From Nitrososphaerota archaeon (lineage in GTDB: Archaea; Thermoproteota; Nitrososphaeria; Nitrososphaerales; Nitrosopumilaceae), in contig JAGWGB010000007.1 in assembly GCA_028867595.1 (NCBI GenBank), forward strand, positions 1 to 64,000: 64,000 nucleotides of DNA, read 5' to 3'. Every line of letters starts with the position of its first letter. Position 1 is the first letter of the stretch. Both the position numbers and the translations under genes were made by a program. The notes beneath the pieces are model-generated. The model did no database searches, was not told the DNA's origin, and worked only from the letters and a program-made list of their open reading frames with translations. This document shows positions 2,467-28,981 of this stretch, piece after piece.

Positions 2467-2808
2467 GTGCAACAATGTGATTTCTGCGGTTCAGATTTTG
2501 GAGATCACACGTGTTATTTCTGTGATAAGCATTGCTGCGATTCTTGCATGACAAATGACATGACCCGCTGCAAAAAGTGCTACATTGCAAAACGCAAGCT
2601 CGGCTGGAAAATCTTCAAGAAAAACAAGGTTCTGTTGGGTTTTATCGGATTTGTGTGGGCATATACTGTATTTCCAGTGCCGCTAATCAAAGGAATTGAC
2701 CCCACGTTCTATTGGGTTTGTTTCGGGGTGGCAATCATGATAATGATTCCAGTCAGCCTTGCAATGTTTTTTTGGTCAAGAGAACCACCTGTGTCAGATC
2801 TCAAGTAA
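2467..2808 (+). CDS. Zinc-finger protein with two membrane segments
   Basis: A 113-aa protein with GTG start, 32 bases after aspS1. The first 45 residues are cysteine/histidine rich (CDFCGSDFGDHTCYFCDKHCC, CDSC, CKKC), like an AN1- or B-box-type cross-brace finger binding two zinc ions. Two hydrophobic stretches follow (about 57-75 and 84-105), so it is likely a membrane protein with a cytosolic zinc head. Its 3' end overlaps the convergent leuB by 8 bases. No specific function is known to me. Confidence 0.75.
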   Translation: MQQCDFCGSDFGDHTCYFCDKHCCDSCMTNDMTRCKKCYIAKRKLGWKIFKKNKVLLGFIGFVWAYTVFPVPLIKGIDPTFYWVCFGVAIMIMIPVSLAMFFWSREPPVSDLK

Positions 2809-3817
2809 GTTTTGAAATGACTTTATGGGTAAACTCTTTGGTGGTATTGTTTCCGCCAATGTCTTTTGTCTTGATTCCTTCTGATACAACGCCATAGACT
2901 GCTTCTTCTATTTTTTTTGCTACTGAAAATGATTTGGAATCGTTATTTTTCATTGCCAGCCATTCTAACATCATCTTTGCAGACAAAATAAACGAAGATG
3001 GATTTGCAGCCTGCTTTCCTGCTATGTCAAAGGCTGCACCATGTACGGGTTCAAACAAGGCAAAGTTCTCCCCAATGTTTGCTGCAGGTGCCATGCCTAA
3101 TCCTCCTACTACCTGAGCTGCCTCATCTGATAAGATATCTCCAAACAAATTGGTTGTAACTATGACATCAAAGGCCTCTGGCTGTCTGATTAGATTCATT
3201 GCACATGCATCGACATACATCTGCTCAAACGCAATGTTATCGTAATCCTTTGCAACCTGTGCACATGTCCTTGCAAAAAGGCCGTCTGTCTTTCTCATGA
3301 CGTTTGATTTGTGCACACATGTTACCTTGTTCTGCTTGTTTCTCTGCTTTGCAGTCATGAATGCATATTTTGCAATGCGTCTTGATGCATATTCTGAAAT
3401 GGTCCTTAGCGCTACTGCTGCATTTCCAACGTCAAACTCCATTCCTGTGTAAAGGTCTTCAGTGTTCTCTCTTACTATGACAAGATCAATGTTTTCTCTA
3501 AGAGATGGCATGTTCGGATACGACTTTGCTGGCCTAATGTTAGCGTAAAGATCTAGCATTCTTCTTAGAACTACAATGACATCTGCAGCACTTTCTCCTA
3601 CTGGAGCTTTGAGGCACGCGTCAGATTTTTTTATTGCATCAAGTGTAGAGTCTGGAAGCGCCTTGCCTGTCTTCTTTAGTGCTATATCTCCTGCCTCAAC
3701 TGGGTTAATATCCAACTTTAATCCAATCTTGTCGCTTATTGCATGTAGTATTTCTGTGACAGACTCGGATAACTCGGGGCCTATGCCGTCTCCTGTTATA
3801 AGTGAGATTTTGTACAT
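2801..3817 (-). CDS. leuB: 3-isopropylmalate dehydrogenase
   Basis: A 338-aa beta-decarboxylating dehydrogenase: ITGDGIGPEL at the N-terminus, the substrate loop around VVLRRMLDLYANIRPAKSYP, the VRENTEDLYTG segment, and the metal-binding NLFGDILSDEAAQ. In leucine synthesis it oxidises 3-isopropylmalate to 2-oxoisocaproate with NAD+. Last gene of ilvB-ilvN-leuA-leuB; its start is directly adjacent to the leuA stop. The family also contains isocitrate and homoisocitrate dehydrogenases; the operon supports the leucine role. leuC and leuD are not in the window. Confidence 0.88.
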   Translation of the reverse strand: MYKISLITGDGIGPELSESVTEILHAISDKIGLKLDINPVEAGDIALKKTGKALPDSTLDAIKKSDACLKAPVGESAADVIVVLRRMLDLYANIRPAKSYPNMPSLRENIDLVIVRENTEDLYTGMEFDVGNAAVALRTISEYASRRIAKYAFMTAKQRNKQNKVTCVHKSNVMRKTDGLFARTCAQVAKDYDNIAFEQMYVDACAMNLIRQPEAFDVIVTTNLFGDILSDEAAQVVGGLGMAPAANIGENFALFEPVHGAAFDIAGKQAANPSSFILSAKMMLEWLAMKNNDSKSFSVAKKIEEAVYGVVSEGIKTKDIGGNNTTKEFTHKVISKLT

Positions 3818-5335
3818 CTAGTGTCCCAAGTTTTTTTGTTTGAGAATTTTTTTGAGCATGATTCTGTTTATACCGTCAAGCATGGCCTGGACACTTGTGA
3901 TCACAATGTCTTCTCCAATGGATTTTGCAGAAGATTGGTTGCCATATGCATCCTCGACTTTGATTGTAACTTCGCACAATGCTTCTGAGCCACCTGAGAT
4001 GGAATCTAACTTGTATTCCTTTATTCTTACTTTGGCAATCTCTCCTGTGATCTTTTGTATTGCATTAATTGATGCATCTACTGGACCTACGCCATAGTCA
4101 GTTCCTATGAAGTCTTTTCCCTCTATGTTTAGTTTTACAAACGCATATGGCATATTTCCCATTCCAGTGGATACAGAGAAACCAGTCAAGTGTACTAGCC
4201 TCCTCAATCCTTCTTGATGCATTACTTCACCTGTGATTGAGAGCAATTCTACATCTGTAACATGCTTTCCCTGGTCCCCTAGTTTCTTGACCTGTTCTAG
4301 TATCTCATGTGTCTGCTCCTTTGAGGGCTGTATGCCGTATTCCTCTAGCATTGCTGCGATGCCATGGGCGCCAGCATGCTTTCCCACCTGGAACCAACGT
4401 GTTCTGCCTACAAGTTCTGGGCTGATTGGCTCGTATGTGAGTGGGTTACTCAACACTCCGTGTGTATGTATTCCAGATTCATGCCCAAAGGCATTTTCGC
4501 CCACTATGGCTTTGTTTGGCTGGACCTGAATTCCAACTATTTTTGAAACGTATCTTGATGTGTCATAGAGAAGCTTGGTGTTGATGTTTGTCTCAAATTT
4601 GTCATCAAACTGTAAACATTGTAACGCCATGACAAATTCTTCAAGTGATGCGTTGCCAGCTCGCTCTCCAATGCCGTTTATTGTAACATGAGCACATTGT
4701 GCACCAGCTTGGATTCCTGATATTGCGTTTGCTACTGCCAATCCAAAGTCATTGTGGCAGTGAACACTCACAGGTAAATGAGTTGCATTGATGGTGTCCT
4801 TGGTTATTGCAGCAATATATTGCGGAGTTGAATATCCTACTGTATCTGGAATGTCTATTCTGTCCGTTCCAGCTTCTGTTACGGCACTGAAAACTTTTTT
4901 GAGAAACTCTCTGTCAGTTCTTGTAGCATCTTCTGCAGAAAACTCTACCTGTAGGCCTCTAGATTTTGCATATTCTACTGCTTCCACTGCTTTTGCAAGG
5001 GCCTGTTCACGGGTAAGGTTGAGCTTGTATCTAAGATGAATATCTGATGTTGCAATAAACGTGTGTATGTATTTCAATCCTGCATCTACTGCAGCATCGA
5101 TGTCTTTTTTCTCCGTTCTTGCAAGCCCACAAATCTCTGCACGAAGACCGGCGTGAGCTATCTCTTTTACAGCTTTTCTTTCGCCTTCAGAAATTATAGG
5201 AAACCCTGCTTCTATTGCATCCACTCCAAGCTCGTCTAGCTTTTGAGCAATTGCAAGTTTTTGTTCTGGTGTTAACGCAACTCCTGGCGTCTGCTCTCCA
5301 TCTCTTAACGTGGTATCAAAAATTCTAACTTTCAT
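3818..5335 (-). CDS. leuA: 2-isopropylmalate synthase
   Basis: A 505-aa DRE-TIM metallolyase, joining 2-oxoisovalerate and acetyl-CoA in the first leucine-specific step. Visible are DTTLRDGEQTPG (catalytic Arg, metal Asp), SVHCHNDFGLAVAN (metal His pair), and a C-terminal allosteric LeuA dimer domain (about 370-500, with YGVGPVDASINAI), where leucine feedback would act. The start overlaps the end of ilvN by 11 bases, so translation is probably coupled. (R)-citramalate synthase is closely related and cannot be fully excluded, but leuB downstream and a separate ilvA favour IPMS. Confidence 0.9.
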   Translation of the reverse strand: MKVRIFDTTLRDGEQTPGVALTPEQKLAIAQKLDELGVDAIEAGFPIISEGERKAVKEIAHAGLRAEICGLARTEKKDIDAAVDAGLKYIHTFIATSDIHLRYKLNLTREQALAKAVEAVEYAKSRGLQVEFSAEDATRTDREFLKKVFSAVTEAGTDRIDIPDTVGYSTPQYIAAITKDTINATHLPVSVHCHNDFGLAVANAISGIQAGAQCAHVTINGIGERAGNASLEEFVMALQCLQFDDKFETNINTKLLYDTSRYVSKIVGIQVQPNKAIVGENAFGHESGIHTHGVLSNPLTYEPISPELVGRTRWFQVGKHAGAHGIAAMLEEYGIQPSKEQTHEILEQVKKLGDQGKHVTDVELLSITGEVMHQEGLRRLVHLTGFSVSTGMGNMPYAFVKLNIEGKDFIGTDYGVGPVDASINAIQKITGEIAKVRIKEYKLDSISGGSEALCEVTIKVEDAYGNQSSAKSIGEDIVITSVQAMLDGINRIMLKKILKQKNLGH

Positions 5336-5825
5336 TGCCTACTCCTCTCTCTAATGCACAAATACCCGTTCTTGTTATTTCAAGTATCCCGTATGCTCTC
5401 ACCAAGTCTTCAAATGCGTTGATTCTATCAGGTGTTGCAGTAATCTCTACAACTATCGAGGATTTTCTTACATCATGGACGTTGCATTTGAAGGCATTTG
5501 CAAGGTCAGTTATTTCCATGATATCTGAAGGCTTTGTGATCTTCACTTTCATTAATACTAGTTCACGGTATATGCTCTTTTTTTCATCTAATAGTTTTAC
5601 TTCTACAGTATCTATCATCTTGTCTAGCTGCTTGATTATCTGGCTAAGTTGTTTCTCATCGGCAGATGTAGTGATGGTCATTCTGGAAATCTCTGGATTC
5701 TCTGTTATTCCAACTGATATGCTATCTATGTTGTAATTTCTTGATCTAAACAAATGTGTGACCTTGAATAAAACACCAGGTTTGTTTTCTACAAGGACGG
5801 AAATTATGGACCACATGAACAGCAT
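5325..5825 (-). CDS. ilvN: Acetolactate synthase regulatory subunit
   Basis: A 166-aa small subunit. The N-terminal ACT domain (IISVLVENKPGVLFKVTHLF..RNYNIDSISVG) binds valine or a related effector in the family; a second ACT-like domain follows from about residue 80. It activates the IlvB catalytic subunit and gives feedback control. It starts 4 bases past the ilvB stop and overlaps leuA by 11 bases, so subunits and the next enzyme are made together. Length is typical. Confidence 0.93.
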   Translation of the reverse strand: MLFMWSIISVLVENKPGVLFKVTHLFRSRNYNIDSISVGITENPEISRMTITTSADEKQLSQIIKQLDKMIDTVEVKLLDEKKSIYRELVLMKVKITKPSDIMEITDLANAFKCNVHDVRKSSIVVEITATPDRINAFEDLVRAYGILEITRTGICALERGVGNES

Positions 5826-5828
5826 CCA

Positions 5829-7517
5829 CTATGAAGGTAAGATCATATCCTTGAGAGGTGTTCCAGGAGCTACAAAAGGCAAGACATCTTCTTGTGGATC
5901 AATTGGAATATCAATCACTGTGGCAATGTTGCTCTTGAGCGCAGTTTGGACAGCTTTTCCAATCTCGTCTATGCTTTGCGCTCTTATCCCTTGAGCTCCG
6001 TAAGACTCTGCTAATTTTACATAGTCTGGACAATTCTTGAGATCTATTCCAATCATACGTCTGTCATAGAATGTTCGCTGCCATTGTGCTACCATTCCAA
6101 GTGAAAAATTGTTTAACAAAAACACAATCACTGGCAAGTCATCTAGTACTGAAACTGCAAGCGAATTTTCTGTCATGTTGAAACTGCCTTCTCCTGCAAT
6201 GTCAACTACTGGAACTTCTGGTTTGGCAGCTTTTGCTCCAATTGCTGCTGGAAATCCCCATCCCATAGTACCAAGTCCTGTAGAACTAAAGAAAGTTCCA
6301 GGCTGTATTACATCAAAGAATAATGACGCCCACATTTGGTGTTGGCCTACTTCAGTTGTTACAATTGATTGTGCTGGAAGCACTTCTCTTAATTTTCGTA
6401 GAACCTTTGCAGCACCTAATGGGTGAGGATGAAGTTTTAGGCTTTGCCTAAAGTATTCTCTTGTCTCATTTACACGCTTTAGCCATGGGTTATCGCCATT
6501 TTTCTTGATTGCCTTTTGGATTAGCATCTTTACCATGGTTCTAAGTGATGCCTTGAGGTCTCCTACCACTGCTATGTGTGTTGTCTGGTTCTTTCCAATT
6601 TCTGCAGGGTCTACATCCATGTGAATTATCTTGAGGTTCTTTTCAAATTCCTCAAATGTTCCAACAGATCTGTCTGAAAACCTTGAACCGCATGCAAGTA
6701 CGCAATCAGCTTCTACCATGATCTTGTTAGCTTCTGCATGCCCGTGCATCCCTATGGGACCTAATGAAAGTGGATGATTTTCTGGGAAAGCACCTTTTCC
6801 TTTGAATGTTGTCACAACTGGTATCATTAGTAATTCTGCTATTGATTGAAGTTCGGCAAATGCTCCTGAAATTATAACTCCACCACCAGCCAATATCACA
6901 GGCCTTTCAGAAGAAAGTAACATGTCTATTGCGCGTTCTATCTTTCCAATGTCTGGGTCTACCCAAGGATGATATCCGCGAATTTTTACCTCTGATGGAA
7001 ACACCATCTCGGCCTCATTTTGTTGAACATCTTTTGGAATGTCTATTAGCACAGGACCTGGTCTGCCCGTTGCTGAAATGTAAAATGCTTTTTTTACTAC
7101 TTCTGGAATTTCTGCTGCCGTCATGGGCTGGAAGGCATATTTCACAATGGGATTTGTAATTCCGATAATGTCGCTTTCTTGAAAAGCGTCTTTTCCAATC
7201 ATTTTTGTTGGTACTTGTCCAGTAATTGCAATCATTGGAGCCGAATCTGCTTGCGCAGTTGCGATCCCAGTTACAATATTTGTTGCTCCAGGACCTGACG
7301 TTGCAAAACATACTCCTGGTCTTCTACTCACTCTTCCAAAACCGTCTGCCATGTGTGATGCAGACTGTTCATGTCTTACAAGTATGTGTCTGATATTGCT
7401 CTTATAGAGCTCGTCGTAAATTGGAAGGTTTGCTCCTCCGGGAAGTCCGAAGACTATGTTTGCGCCCTCTTTCTCTAGGGCAACCATTAAAGATCTAGCA
7501 CCTGACATTTTTTCCAT
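5829..7517 (-). CDS. ilvB: Acetolactate synthase catalytic subunit
   Basis: A ThDP/FAD enzyme of about 562 aa condensing pyruvate (or pyruvate plus 2-oxobutyrate) to acetolactate. The N-terminal PYR domain has FGLPGGANLPIYDEL and the catalytic Glu in VRHEQSASHMADGFGR; a central FAD-type domain and a C-terminal PP domain follow. The ThDP motif reads GEGSFNM...NN instead of the usual GDG...NN. The track opens at TTG 7535, but ATG 7517 has GGAG eight bases upstream, so I choose it; a ribosome-binding site means the mRNA has a leader, and that leader contains a short Leu/Ile/Val-rich ORF. First gene of ilvBN-leuAB. Confidence 0.93.
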   Translation of the reverse strand: MEKMSGARSLMVALEKEGANIVFGLPGGANLPIYDELYKSNIRHILVRHEQSASHMADGFGRVSRRPGVCFATSGPGATNIVTGIATAQADSAPMIAITGQVPTKMIGKDAFQESDIIGITNPIVKYAFQPMTAAEIPEVVKKAFYISATGRPGPVLIDIPKDVQQNEAEMVFPSEVKIRGYHPWVDPDIGKIERAIDMLLSSERPVILAGGGVIISGAFAELQSIAELLMIPVVTTFKGKGAFPENHPLSLGPIGMHGHAEANKIMVEADCVLACGSRFSDRSVGTFEEFEKNLKIIHMDVDPAEIGKNQTTHIAVVGDLKASLRTMVKMLIQKAIKKNGDNPWLKRVNETREYFRQSLKLHPHPLGAAKVLRKLREVLPAQSIVTTEVGQHQMWASLFFDVIQPGTFFSSTGLGTMGWGFPAAIGAKAAKPEVPVVDIAGEGSFNMTENSLAVSVLDDLPVIVFLLNNFSLGMVAQWQRTFYDRRMIGIDLKNCPDYVKLAESYGAQGIRAQSIDEIGKAVQTALKSNIATVIDIPIDPQEDVLPFVAPGTPLKDMILPS

Positions 7518-7543
7518 AATTTTAACTCCAAACAATTGCTGGT

Positions 7544-7606
7544 CTACAGCATAAGGTCGACTAGCAGCAGAATACCAGAAATGCTTGCCGAGCCTCCTAA
7601 CTTCAT
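7544..7606 (-). CDS. Candidate Leu/Ile/Val-rich leader peptide before ilvB
   Basis: Read from the sequence, too short for the track: ATG 7606 to TAG 7544, peptide MKLGGSASISGILLLVDLML. Nine of 20 residues are Leu, Ile or Val, with ILLLV in a row. The ATG lies about 34 nt behind a TTTATAAA box (7637-7644) and the ORF ends 27 bases before the chosen ilvB start. The transcript can pair CUGGU with ACCAG, or UGCUG with CAGCA, and these options compete for CAG. This resembles bacterial ilv/leu attenuator peptides. Whether it is translated or regulatory is inference. Confidence 0.35.
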   Translation of the reverse strand: MKLGGSASISGILLLVDLML

Positions 7607-25621: not shown

Positions 25622-26985
25622 TTGGAAGCCTCCGTTAACGCTGATATCATTGCATCTGCCTTATGTTGCGTTTCCATCCATTCGTTTTCAGCTATTGAAT
25701 CAGATACAATTCCAGCTCCTGTTTGGATAAATCCTTGAGTTCCATTTATGAAAATAGTCCTAATGGCAATTGCAAAATCACAACATCCATTAAAAGAAAA
25801 ATATCCTACAGCACCAGCGTATGGACCTCTCGTATCAGGTTCTAACTCATCGATTATTTCCATGGCACGGATCTTTGGAGCCCCTGATACTGTACCTGCT
25901 GGAAAAACTGCTTTTATAGCATCAAATACATTGTATTTTTTGTCAAGAGTGCCTACGACATGAGTTACAATATGCTGTACATGGCTAAATCTCTTCACAG
26001 ACATCAATTCTTTGACATGTACAGAACCATATTTGCAAACTCGTCCGATATCATTACGTCCCAAATCTACTAACATGGTATGTTCAGCCAATTCTTTTTC
26101 ATCGTGAAGTAGATCCTCTTTTAAAATTTCATTTTTCTTCTCATCATTGGTAATTGGACGAGTACCCGCTATTGGAAAAGTTTCCACTGTATTTCCTGTT
26201 ATACGTAAAAGCATCTCTGGACTAGAGCCTATCATGGTTCTCTTGCCTAATTTCATATGGTAAAGATATGGTGATGGGTTGATCCTCCTAAGTGCCTGAT
26301 ATACTTTTAAAAGATCACCACCTGCATTGAAAGTGAATTTTCTTGAAAGCACAACTTGAAAGATATCTCCACTGAGTATGTACTGTTTTGCTTTACTTAC
26401 CATCTCATTAAAATATTTTTTATCTAGATTTTCTTTGATCTCAGATACAGAAAATGTATCCATATTTGCATTTCCAGTAACCAGACTTTGTATTCTATTT
26501 ATGTCATAATAGAAGTAGAAAGATTTTTTCTCCTTGTTGTCATAAAGTATTCCGTCATCATACACTCCAAATTCCATCAATGGTGCACTATCTTCATTAT
26601 GAGATTTTGGAATTGTTTCCCATAACCTTATTGCATCATAACTAATGGCACCCACTGCACCTCCAACATATCTGTATTTTTGGTCAGGAACTAGATGGAG
26701 GAATTTTTTAATTTCTGATAATGGGTCTTCTGTCTTGATAGTAGTTGTTGTACCGTTTTTATGATGAAGTGTTACTTTATCAGAAAATCCTTTTATCACT
26801 ACAGAGGGGTCAAATCCCATGATTGAAGTTTCGGCTAATTCTTCAGGTCCTGTTAATGATTCAAAAAGAAAAGAGTAATCATAGTTTCTTGAAATTTTAT
26901 TATATAGATCAAATTGGGAGCCAGAATAATCTAGGGGTATTACCTTAAGATTTGAATGCCCAAATGTGGCCACCCATGCAACCAC
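25618..26985 (-). CDS. trpE: Anthranilate synthase component I
   Basis: A 455-aa chorismate-using enzyme. The C-terminal core shows PSPYLYHMKLGKRTMIGSSPEM, GTRPITNDEKKNE, DLGRNDIGRV, VVGTLDKKYNVFDAIKAVFPAGTVSGAPKIRAMEII and GAVGYFSFNGCCDFAIAIRT (quoted in part). The N-terminal LLESLTGPEELAETS segment is the usual tryptophan feedback site region. Start ATG lies about 22 nt behind a TATA-like tataat (27003-27008, minus sense), hence probably leaderless. First gene of trpEGDCBA; upstream lies a perfect palindrome. Confidence 0.95.
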   Translation of the reverse strand: MVAWVATFGHSNLKVIPLDYSGSQFDLYNKISRNYDYSFLFESLTGPEELAETSIMGFDPSVVIKGFSDKVTLHHKNGTTTTIKTEDPLSEIKKFLHLVPDQKYRYVGGAVGAISYDAIRLWETIPKSHNEDSAPLMEFGVYDDGILYDNKEKKSFYFYYDINRIQSLVTGNANMDTFSVSEIKENLDKKYFNEMVSKAKQYILSGDIFQVVLSRKFTFNAGGDLLKVYQALRRINPSPYLYHMKLGKRTMIGSSPEMLLRITGNTVETFPIAGTRPITNDEKKNEILKEDLLHDEKELAEHTMLVDLGRNDIGRVCKYGSVHVKELMSVKRFSHVQHIVTHVVGTLDKKYNVFDAIKAVFPAGTVSGAPKIRAMEIIDELEPDTRGPYAGAVGYFSFNGCCDFAIAIRTIFINGTQGFIQTGAGIVSDSIAENEWMETQHKADAMISALTEASK

Positions 26986-27030
26986 TCAATTCTAACCATA
27001 TTTATAATTAAGTCGCAGTATGGTATGGAT

Positions 27031-27047
27031 TACCGTATAGTACGGTA
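27031..27047. promoter_or_regulatory. Palindromic candidate operator between trpE and a zinc-protein gene
   Basis: TACCGTA-TAG-TACGGTA is a perfect 7+3+7 inverted repeat in the 93-base divergent region. It is about 46-62 bases upstream of trpE and directly upstream of the TATA-like ctttatatg (27048-27056) of the plus-strand gene, so a bound protein would affect that promoter and possibly trpE too. The half-site TACCGTAT recurs at 362, 38485 and 56678. Confidence 0.5.
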
Positions 27048-27078
27048 CCTTTATATGCCATGAATACGATCCTACCTT

Positions 27079-27304: not shown

Positions 27305-28981
27305 CTACCATTTTGGTTTTGTTATTGCGCCTTCTGATGCAGAAGTAACAAGCGAAGCAAATTTTGCTAATGCTCCTCTTTCATAATTGGGTTTTCTTGG
27401 TTTCCATTGCTTCCTACGTTCAGCCAATTCTTCTTCTGATACCATGATGTCTATGCTGTTTTTTGTCAAGTTGATTCTTATTTCATCTCCATCTTTTACT
27501 AATGCAATATTCCCACCTACTGCAGCTTCTGGGGATGCATGCCCTATCATCAGGCCTCTTGTTGCACCAGAAAATCTTCCATCTGTTACCAATGCTACTT
27601 TCTCACCTAATTTTTGCCCTACCAAAGCTGCTGTTACTCCTAACATCTCTCTCATACCGGGACCTCCTTTGGGTCCTTCGTATCTTATTATCACTACATC
27701 ATGCTCTTTAATTTCTCGCCTGGATATTGCGTCAAACGCATCTTCTTCTCTATCAAACACTCTAGCTTTTCCCACAAATTCTACTGTGTGCATTCCAGCA
27801 ACTTTAACCACTGCACCATCTGGAGCAAGCGAACCTCTGAGTATTGTGAGGGTCCCCACATCATGAATTGGTGTTTCGATGGGTTTGAGAACTTTCTGAT
27901 GCTCACTAAATGAAAGTTGTATAGAGTCTAAATTCTGTTTCATAGTTTTACCTGTAACAGTTAAAACATTCTCGTTTAGAAGATTTTTTTTCTGTAGGCT
28001 TTTCATTACTAAAGGAATTCCGCCTATTTTATCAAGATCTAACATGACATAAAATCCGCCAGGTCTCATATCTGCAATATGGGGTGTTCGTTTTCTTACT
28101 TTTTCAAAATCCTCAAGGGTTAGATGCACTCCAATTTCCCTAGATAAAGCTAAGAGATGAAGTACTGCATTAGTTGATCCGCCTATGGCATTTGCAATAG
28201 TTATTGCATTTTCAAATGCTTCATACGTAAGGATATCCTTGGGTCTAATTCCTGTCTCGAGAAGGTTCATTACTGCCTTGCCACTTTGATAAACAAATTT
28301 TTCTCTTCTTGGATCCTCTGCTGGTGGAGAAGCACTTCCCGGTAATGCGATACCTATAGCTTCGCTGATTGAAGCCATAGTATTTGCAGTATACATGCCT
28401 CCACAAGAACCAGCATTGGGACATGCCACATTCTCCAAATTCTTAAGAGCTTCAAGGGTAAGCTGTCCTGCATCATATGCCCCAACAGCTTCGTATACAT
28501 CTTGAACTGTAACTTGCTTTCCCTCATAAATCCCAGGCATTATTGTTCCTCCATATACAAAAACTGAAGGTACGTTCAATCGAGCCATTGCCATCATGGA
28601 ACCAGGTAAGCTTTTATCACAACCTGCAATCCCAACAAGACCATCGTATTGATGGGCTCTTACCATTAACTCAATAGAGTCTGCTATGATCTCTCTACTA
28701 ACTAATGAAGATTTCATACCTTCGTGTCCCATTGCAATCCCATCACTTACTGCGATTGTAGCAAACTCTCTTGGAGTTCCGCCTGATTCTTTGACTCCTG
28801 CTTTTGCATGAATCGATAACCTTTCAAGATGGATATTGCATGGCGTAGCTTCATTACCCGTATGTGAGACTCCGATGAATGGTTTACCAAGATCATTGTC
28901 TGTTAAACCCATTGCTTTGTACATAGCTCTATGCGGAGCCCTCGAAGGCCCTTCTACAACATTCCTACTAGATATTTCCAT
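27305..28981 (-). CDS. ilvD: Dihydroxy-acid dehydratase
   Basis: A 558-aa Fe-S dehydratase making 2-oxoisovalerate and 2-oxo-3-methylvalerate. Cluster cysteines are in [30 protein letters not shown] and [39 protein letters not shown] is the C-terminal signature. Full length. Start ATG is about 25-30 nt from a ttatac element on the minus strand. It completes part of the branched-chain set encoded by ilvBN-leuAB and ilvA elsewhere in the window. Confidence 0.96.

Follow-up and report, generated by a model that had tools for sequence, protein, structure and literature searches.

A conserved Leu/Ile/Val-rich leader ORF ahead of the archaeal ilvB operon, a putative ribosome-mediated attenuator

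The ilvB operon and its upstream region

The window (the whole stretch of DNA that was analysed, 64,000 nucleotides long) derives from an archaeon of the genus Nitrosotalea and carries an ilvB-ilvN-leuA-leuB operon on its minus strand (Table 1). The four genes are packed head to tail, with intergenic gaps of 3, -11 and 0 nt. This gene order had been proposed in the first-pass annotation and was borne out by family matches for ilvB, ilvN and leuA, and by sequence reading only for leuB. The same annotation had placed a 20-codon ORF with nine branched-chain residues between a TATA box and an ilvB start preceded by a Shine-Dalgarno (SD) sequence. All of these elements could be found exactly as claimed, on the minus strand. 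The encoded peptide contains nine Leu/Ile/Val residues, the TATA box precedes the leader ATG by about 34 nt, and ilvB starts at the SD-preceded ATG 7517-7515. The leader ORF itself has no SD before its ATG and is nearly leaderless. Because transcription in archaea is usually expected to start about 26 nt downstream of the TATA box, the transcript is inferred to begin around 7614, which leaves about 8 nt ahead of the leader ATG. In nearly all relatives a TATA-like motif precedes the leader ATG by about 32-38 nt.

Table 1. Features of the ilvB operon and its leader region (window coordinates)
Feature	Position	Strand	Basis or remark
Operon promoter TATA box TTTATAAA	7637..7644	-	sequence
Leader peptide ORF MKLGGSASISGILLLVDLML	7544..7606	-	20 codons; ATG 7606-7604, TAG 7546-7544
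Stem A 5' arm (UCGGCAAGC)	7583..7591	-	codons 6-8; pairs with 7557-7565
Stem A 3' arm (GCUAGUCGA)	7557..7565	-	codons 14-17 (Leu-Leu-Val-Asp)
Hairpin B 5' arm (UGCUG)	7547..7551	-	last two leader codons
Hairpin B 3' arm (CAGCA)	7537..7541	-	just after the leader stop
ilvB Shine-Dalgarno GGAG	7526..7529	-	sequence; GGAG or GGTGA kept here across Nitrosotalea-like genera
ilvB, acetolactate synthase large subunit	5829..7517	-	TIGR00118, 714 bits
ilvN, acetolactate synthase small subunit	5325..5825	-	TIGR00119
leuA-type 2-isopropylmalate synthase	3818..5335	-	NF002085, TIGR02090
leuB, 3-isopropylmalate-dehydrogenase-like ORF	2801..3817	-	abuts leuA; named by sequence reading, no family search

Conservation and codon content of the leader

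The decisive check had been set beforehand as conservation in relatives. Regions upstream of ilvB were sampled at the levels of genus, family, class and phylum (family labels such as f1 or f29 are relative labels). Within the genus the leader ORF is in place in all 33 genomes with usable sequence (e.g. MKLGGSASISGILLLVDLLL and MTKVDSTSISSILLLVELVL), and the loss of frame or codons in close relatives, which would have refuted the proposal, was not seen. In the first set, covering 24 genera, the ORF is present in 117 of 130 ilvB upstream regions. Outside the genus the N-terminal half has changed completely while the end is kept (MSTKLTGTFGKDLPIVVLL, MNTIKKTGDLSIVLLVVLVL, MTEKLQKTTSLLLLVDIVL, MMTTTTQLLLVLF), and the motif LLLV(D/E)LxL, directly followed by the stop, is retained at the residue level in many genera. 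The frame, the Leu/Ile/Val codons and a stop-proximal stem persist across 24 genera of the Nitrosopumilaceae and related families, while the DNA itself diverges.

Further families of the class contain leaders as well: MLSTYSETTSLPVGLLLLVVLLD in f5, MPRTDSEHKVHVLVLLELA in f3, MNVRVLSVPVLLVIQLLQ in f8 and, counted from an internal ATG, MEQLEASSKLVSIIRRLNVILLIIV in f6. The f9 leader MSERVSASSSSVALIVLLIVV is followed by GGACCCC..GGGGTCC and then by AGGAGGTGA, and the f12 leader MDKRLSLTRLLNIDVLVVPLLVLLL, which has a non-ATG start, by GCGGCC..GGGCCGCTTTTTT and then by GAGGTGAT. In both cases the order is the same and the sequence unrelated. Elsewhere in the phylum, candidates were found in two families, f50 (MRTRSLLVNLQIVIPLIVIVILI) and f29 (ending in LVIVVILK, with a TTG start). 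Since leaders were picked partly by their Leu/Ile/Val content, these family lists do not represent an unbiased count.

A recognisable leader is absent from the ilvB upstream regions of the f2 family, of L196 and L200, and of L112, L175, L181, L185, L186, L209 and L210. In the last seven, which include small AT-rich genomes, the loss looks secondary. The f3g24 leaders have only 3-5 Leu/Ile/Val among their last eight codons and no stable hairpin. Upstream of ilvB in the phylum families f13, f15, f19-f25, f30, f33 and others no clear leader could be found; in several of these the absence says little, as another gene precedes ilvB and the promoter is located in a different place. The matches in f41 and f24 were rejected as leaders, being the end of an upstream leuA-like gene. 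No leader precedes ilvB in five Methanosarcinaceae loci.

A second, 7-codon mini-ORF (e.g. MEKDLIE or MEKNLVN, each followed by a stop) was observed between leader and ilvB in g14 (L130-L139), g4 (L116-L119) and g12 (L127). A conserved TTAAAATTATGG precedes it, and its end coincides with the ilvB ATG or falls immediately short of it. The ATG of the mini-ORF is in frame with ilvB in many g11 genomes.

The unbiased comparison is given by a mechanical criterion, which required an ATG start, a length of 12-35 codons, six or more Leu/Ile/Val in the last nine codons and a position at most 170 nt upstream. It is met by 77 of 122 ilvB upstream regions and by only 1 of 111 upstream regions of the control genes trpE, hisG, ilvD, ilvC and leuC from the same kinds of genomes (Fisher P 4e-28), as well as by 1.9% of shuffles. 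A chance hydrophobic ORF, of the kind that occurs singly in about 2% of shuffled regions, is ruled out by this comparison together with the conservation across 24 genera and further families, and retains practically no credence. No conserved leader was found at trpE, hisG, ilvD, ilvC or leuC, the only other amino acid operons examined. As judged from sequence, the leader is confined to the ilvB operon among those compared.

An apparent trp leader upstream of trpE (MGGHIWTFEP, followed by a stop) was rejected, since it results from reading the conserved N-terminus of TrpE in a shifted frame. In the window, ilvD (27317-28936, minus strand) lies just upstream of trpE (25636-26913, minus strand) on the same strand and has no leader despite sharing the pathway of ilvB. 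Above the trpE promoter a palindromic GGTACCGTACTATACGGTAA is located at 27030-27049 (minus strand). The pattern GGTACCGTACYWTACBGTAA occurs in 18 of the 24 trpE loci fetched and is a candidate operator for a trp repressor.

Within the leader, the branched-chain residues are concentrated at the end. Counted back from the stop (positions -1 to -9), the genus-weighted Leu/Ile/Val fraction is 0.83, 0.78, 0.90, 0.36, 0.87, 0.84, 0.84, 0.70 and 0.57; every one of these nine codons except that at -4 lies within 57-90%. The background in the window genes is 0.24, and leader positions -13 to -20 are near or below it. The last nine codons contain Leu/Ile/Val and Phe/Met in a ratio of 613:35, compared to 4171:1152 in the window genes (odds ratio 4.8, P 3e-28). 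Since Phe and Met are also hydrophobic and yet avoided, it is the identity of the amino acids that appears to be selected, and not a membrane peptide or mere hydrophobicity. Many different Leu/Ile/Val codons occupy the same positions across genera. CTG, the rarest Leu codon (6.4% of the Leu codons in the window), accounts for 46% in the genus leaders, an excess that is in part imposed by hairpin B. Two criteria for an attenuator are met in these regions: end-product codons are clustered in a short ORF in the interval between promoter and first gene, and the control codons are kept while the remainder diverges.

RNA stems at the leader stop

In the Nitrosotalea-like genera g1, g6, g8, g9, g12, g17 and g19-g21 (class I), the leader region comprises stem A and hairpin B. 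The pairing of stem A is located inside the ORF and is conserved, with G-C/A-U exchange between genera; in cis it reaches -13.05 kcal/mol, versus -11.64 +/- 0.33 kcal/mol for permuted arms. Hairpin B is longer in most relatives (UGCUGUA/UACAGCA), where it spans the stop. In the window genome it has only 5 bp, and is thus weaker than in most relatives, with a U-run of 3. The shortening is caused by a 2-nt difference (GACCAGCA, compared to GACTACAGCA in relatives). Two pairings had been named earlier. UGCUG/CAGCA is conserved and corresponds to hairpin B, whereas CUGGU/ACCAG is not conserved and is peculiar to the window genome.

Leaders of the MKLGG type also contain a conserved SD-like TTAGGAGG at codons 3-5, which lies inside the leader at 7600-7593 (minus strand) of the window. 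It can pair with CCTTCT near codon 18, extending stem A.

A different arrangement is found in g3, g4, g11, g13, g14 and g22 (class II), where the region of the start codon pairs with a segment just after the stop (GAGCACA/UGUGCUC, GACCACA/UGUGGUC, GACUGA/UCAGUC and others). The two segments covary: their pairing scores -9.0 in cis versus -6.17 +/- 0.33 when permuted, and none of 500 permutations was as good. It was tested in class I genera as well and is absent there. In the diverged families the stop is directly followed by a hairpin of unrelated sequence, in many cases a strong one, with the ilvB SD soon after in several of them. Common to all these arrangements is a stem with one arm at most about 15 nt from the leader stop. 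In a comparison over 28 genera, the stop-proximal segment was more stable than its shuffles, with a mean z of -1.73 (P 2e-7) and z < -1 in 21 of the 28. These P values overstate independence because the genera are related, and the permutation tests were not corrected for shared ancestry. That the sequence of the stem changes between families while its position is kept would nevertheless be hard to explain without a function. A further criterion for an attenuator, a conserved RNA stem that a stalled ribosome can affect, is hereby met.

Proposed mechanism, alternatives and known systems

The leader is likely to act by ribosome-mediated attenuation, in which a ribosome stalled on the last Leu/Ile/Val codons would cover an arm of the stem and the operon would stay on. 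Comparison of the genomes establishes the ORF, the selection of Leu/Ile/Val codons, the conserved stems, the order promoter-leader-stem-SD and the restriction to the ilvB operon among those tested. Translation, stalling, the on-state and the output are inferred, as no transcript, footprint or starvation data are available.

Transcription would begin a few nt before the leader ATG, and a ribosome would translate the 20 codons of the leader. Under a shortage of charged tRNA for Leu, Ile or Val, this ribosome would stall within the run of Leu/Ile/Val codons leading up to the stop. In that position it would cover one arm of the stem near the stop, which is hairpin B in the window genome and the start/post-stop pairing in other genera; formation of the stem would be prevented, and ilvB would be expressed. 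When the amino acids are plentiful, the ribosome would finish and leave, and the stem would form immediately upstream of a short U-run and of the ilvB SD. Expression would then fall by early transcription termination, by blocked initiation at ilvB, or both. The direction of the switch (on when stalled, off when the ribosome has gone) is inferred from the logic of biosynthetic operons. The stem would be covered directly, rather than an upstream segment being freed, because the Leu/Ile/Val codons abut the stop. The attenuation suggested in the first-pass annotation is in this way supported by the conservation, while its details have changed: apart from UGCUG/CAGCA the conserved alternative pairings differ from those sketched, and the direct covering of the stem departs from the textbook bacterial leu/ilv case.

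The output could not be assigned clearly. Termination is favoured by the enrichment of T-runs of at least 4 after the stop (50%, genus-weighted, versus 18% expected) and by L294 of f12, where GCGGCC..GGGCCGC is followed by TTTTTT right after the leader stop; such a terminator-like stem with T6 was seen in L294 only. Control of ilvB initiation is favoured by the closeness of the stem to the SD in class I and in f6, f9 and g15. Neither is clearly indicated, since half of the genera have no T-run of 4 and the SD does not lie inside the hairpin.

Purely translational attenuation or coupling, in which the leader ribosome alters access to the ilvB SD or reinitiates at it with the mRNA level unchanged, remains a real possibility, though it is not the favoured reading. 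ilvB does use an SD, which the stem closely precedes in most Nitrosotalea-like genera and several deeper families, and which in f6 overlaps the leader stop. However, hairpin B in the genus ends a few nt before the SD and leaves it unpaired (SD pairing was not systematically surveyed), the gap in class II is longer and often contains no clear SD, and the T-run enrichment points to termination.

Classical transcription attenuation of the bacterial type, in which the stalled ribosome frees an antiterminator segment against a downstream intrinsic terminator, is considered rather unlikely. Stem A and hairpin B could be alternatives to each other, and both the T-runs and the f12 stem would fit a terminator. 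Against this, the Leu/Ile/Val codons reach the stop and hairpin B overlaps it, so that the ribosome would cover the stem; a long U-run is missing in many genera, and no conserved third, competing pairing could be found in the leader regions compared.

An arrest peptide, responding in the exit tunnel to free Leu/Ile/Val or some other molecule instead of to tRNA charging, is improbable: the residue-level conservation of LLLV(D/E)LxL would suit it, but across genera the motif dissolves into any order of Leu/Ile/Val (KDLPIVVLL, IVLLIVV, LQIIIL), and stem A accounts for part of the LLVD constraint. Still less credible is a protein- or ligand-binding RNA element in which the ORF is incidental, for although stems A and B are conserved with compensatory changes, the stems differ wholly between genera while Leu/Ile/Val content and stop position persist, the preference for Leu/Ile/Val over Phe/Met and the choice of rare codons require translation, and no Rfam covariance model matches the leader region.

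Ribosome-mediated attenuation at this leader would be mechanistically plausible in archaea, since transcripts there are terminated both at poly(U) and through aCPSF1/FttA (PMC8116511), and the ribosome and FttA have been proposed to compete (PMC11616081). It may tentatively be supposed that the leader represents an ancient archaeal attenuation, simpler than the bacterial one, which predates the radiation of the Nitrososphaeria and perhaps that of the wider phylum, and links tRNA charging to termination through U-runs or FttA/aCPSF1. The conserved features suggest that archaea, like bacteria, may sense Leu/Ile/Val by a stalled ribosome and switch genes on. If true, leader-peptide attenuation, a bacterial classic, would be extended to a second domain by the ilvBN-leuAB leader of abundant ammonia-oxidising archaea. 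The leader would also offer a natural test of archaeal transcription-translation coupling and termination, for which the ribosome-FttA competition is still open (PMC11616081). The question of archaeal attenuation is directly testable by standard transcriptomics.

The enterobacterial ilv and leu attenuators likewise have a leader peptide rich in the end product, with rare Leu codons, before the cognate operon. Unlike the archaeal leader, they possess a long multi-segment RNA with an antiterminator and a U-rich terminator, and their control codons are located upstream of the stop. They work with bacterial RNA polymerase and ribosomes.

No leader-peptide attenuator from archaea was found in the open-access literature searched, in agreement with the earlier statement that no described example is known; the claim of novelty is limited to that literature. 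In Methanosarcina mazei, Ribo-seq revealed translated small ORFs in 5' UTRs as potential uORFs (PMC11456600), and the present leader is likewise a small upstream ORF; amino-acid sensing or attenuation is not reported in the accessible part of that source. The available portion of a review states that uORFs act in archaea too, without giving an archaeal example there (PMC10219788). Translational attenuation of the ermC type is similar in that a ribosome stalled on a uORF alters the local mRNA structure and exposes the next gene. There, however, the arrest is induced by a drug and the SD is sequestered in a stem, whereas in the archaeal leader amino-acid codons would be responsible and the SD lies just outside the stem (PMC10219788).

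The closest described system is the ilvBNC attenuator of the bacterium Corynebacterium glutamicum (leader MTIIRLVVVTARRLP; PMC11857589). Here too, an operon beginning with ilvBN is preceded by a short Leu/Ile/Val-rich leader that lacks an SD, begins almost directly at the transcript's 5' end and is followed by hairpins. For C. glutamicum a hairpin has been proposed to shield the start of the leader (PMC11857589), and the class II archaeal stem is alike. The two systems differ in extent and layout: the C. glutamicum region, 292 nt long, contains a terminator besides three hairpins, and a tail without Leu/Ile/Val follows its control codons (PMC11857589), whereas the archaeal region covers about 100 nt, its control codons end at the stop, and its stem is placed on or beside that stop.
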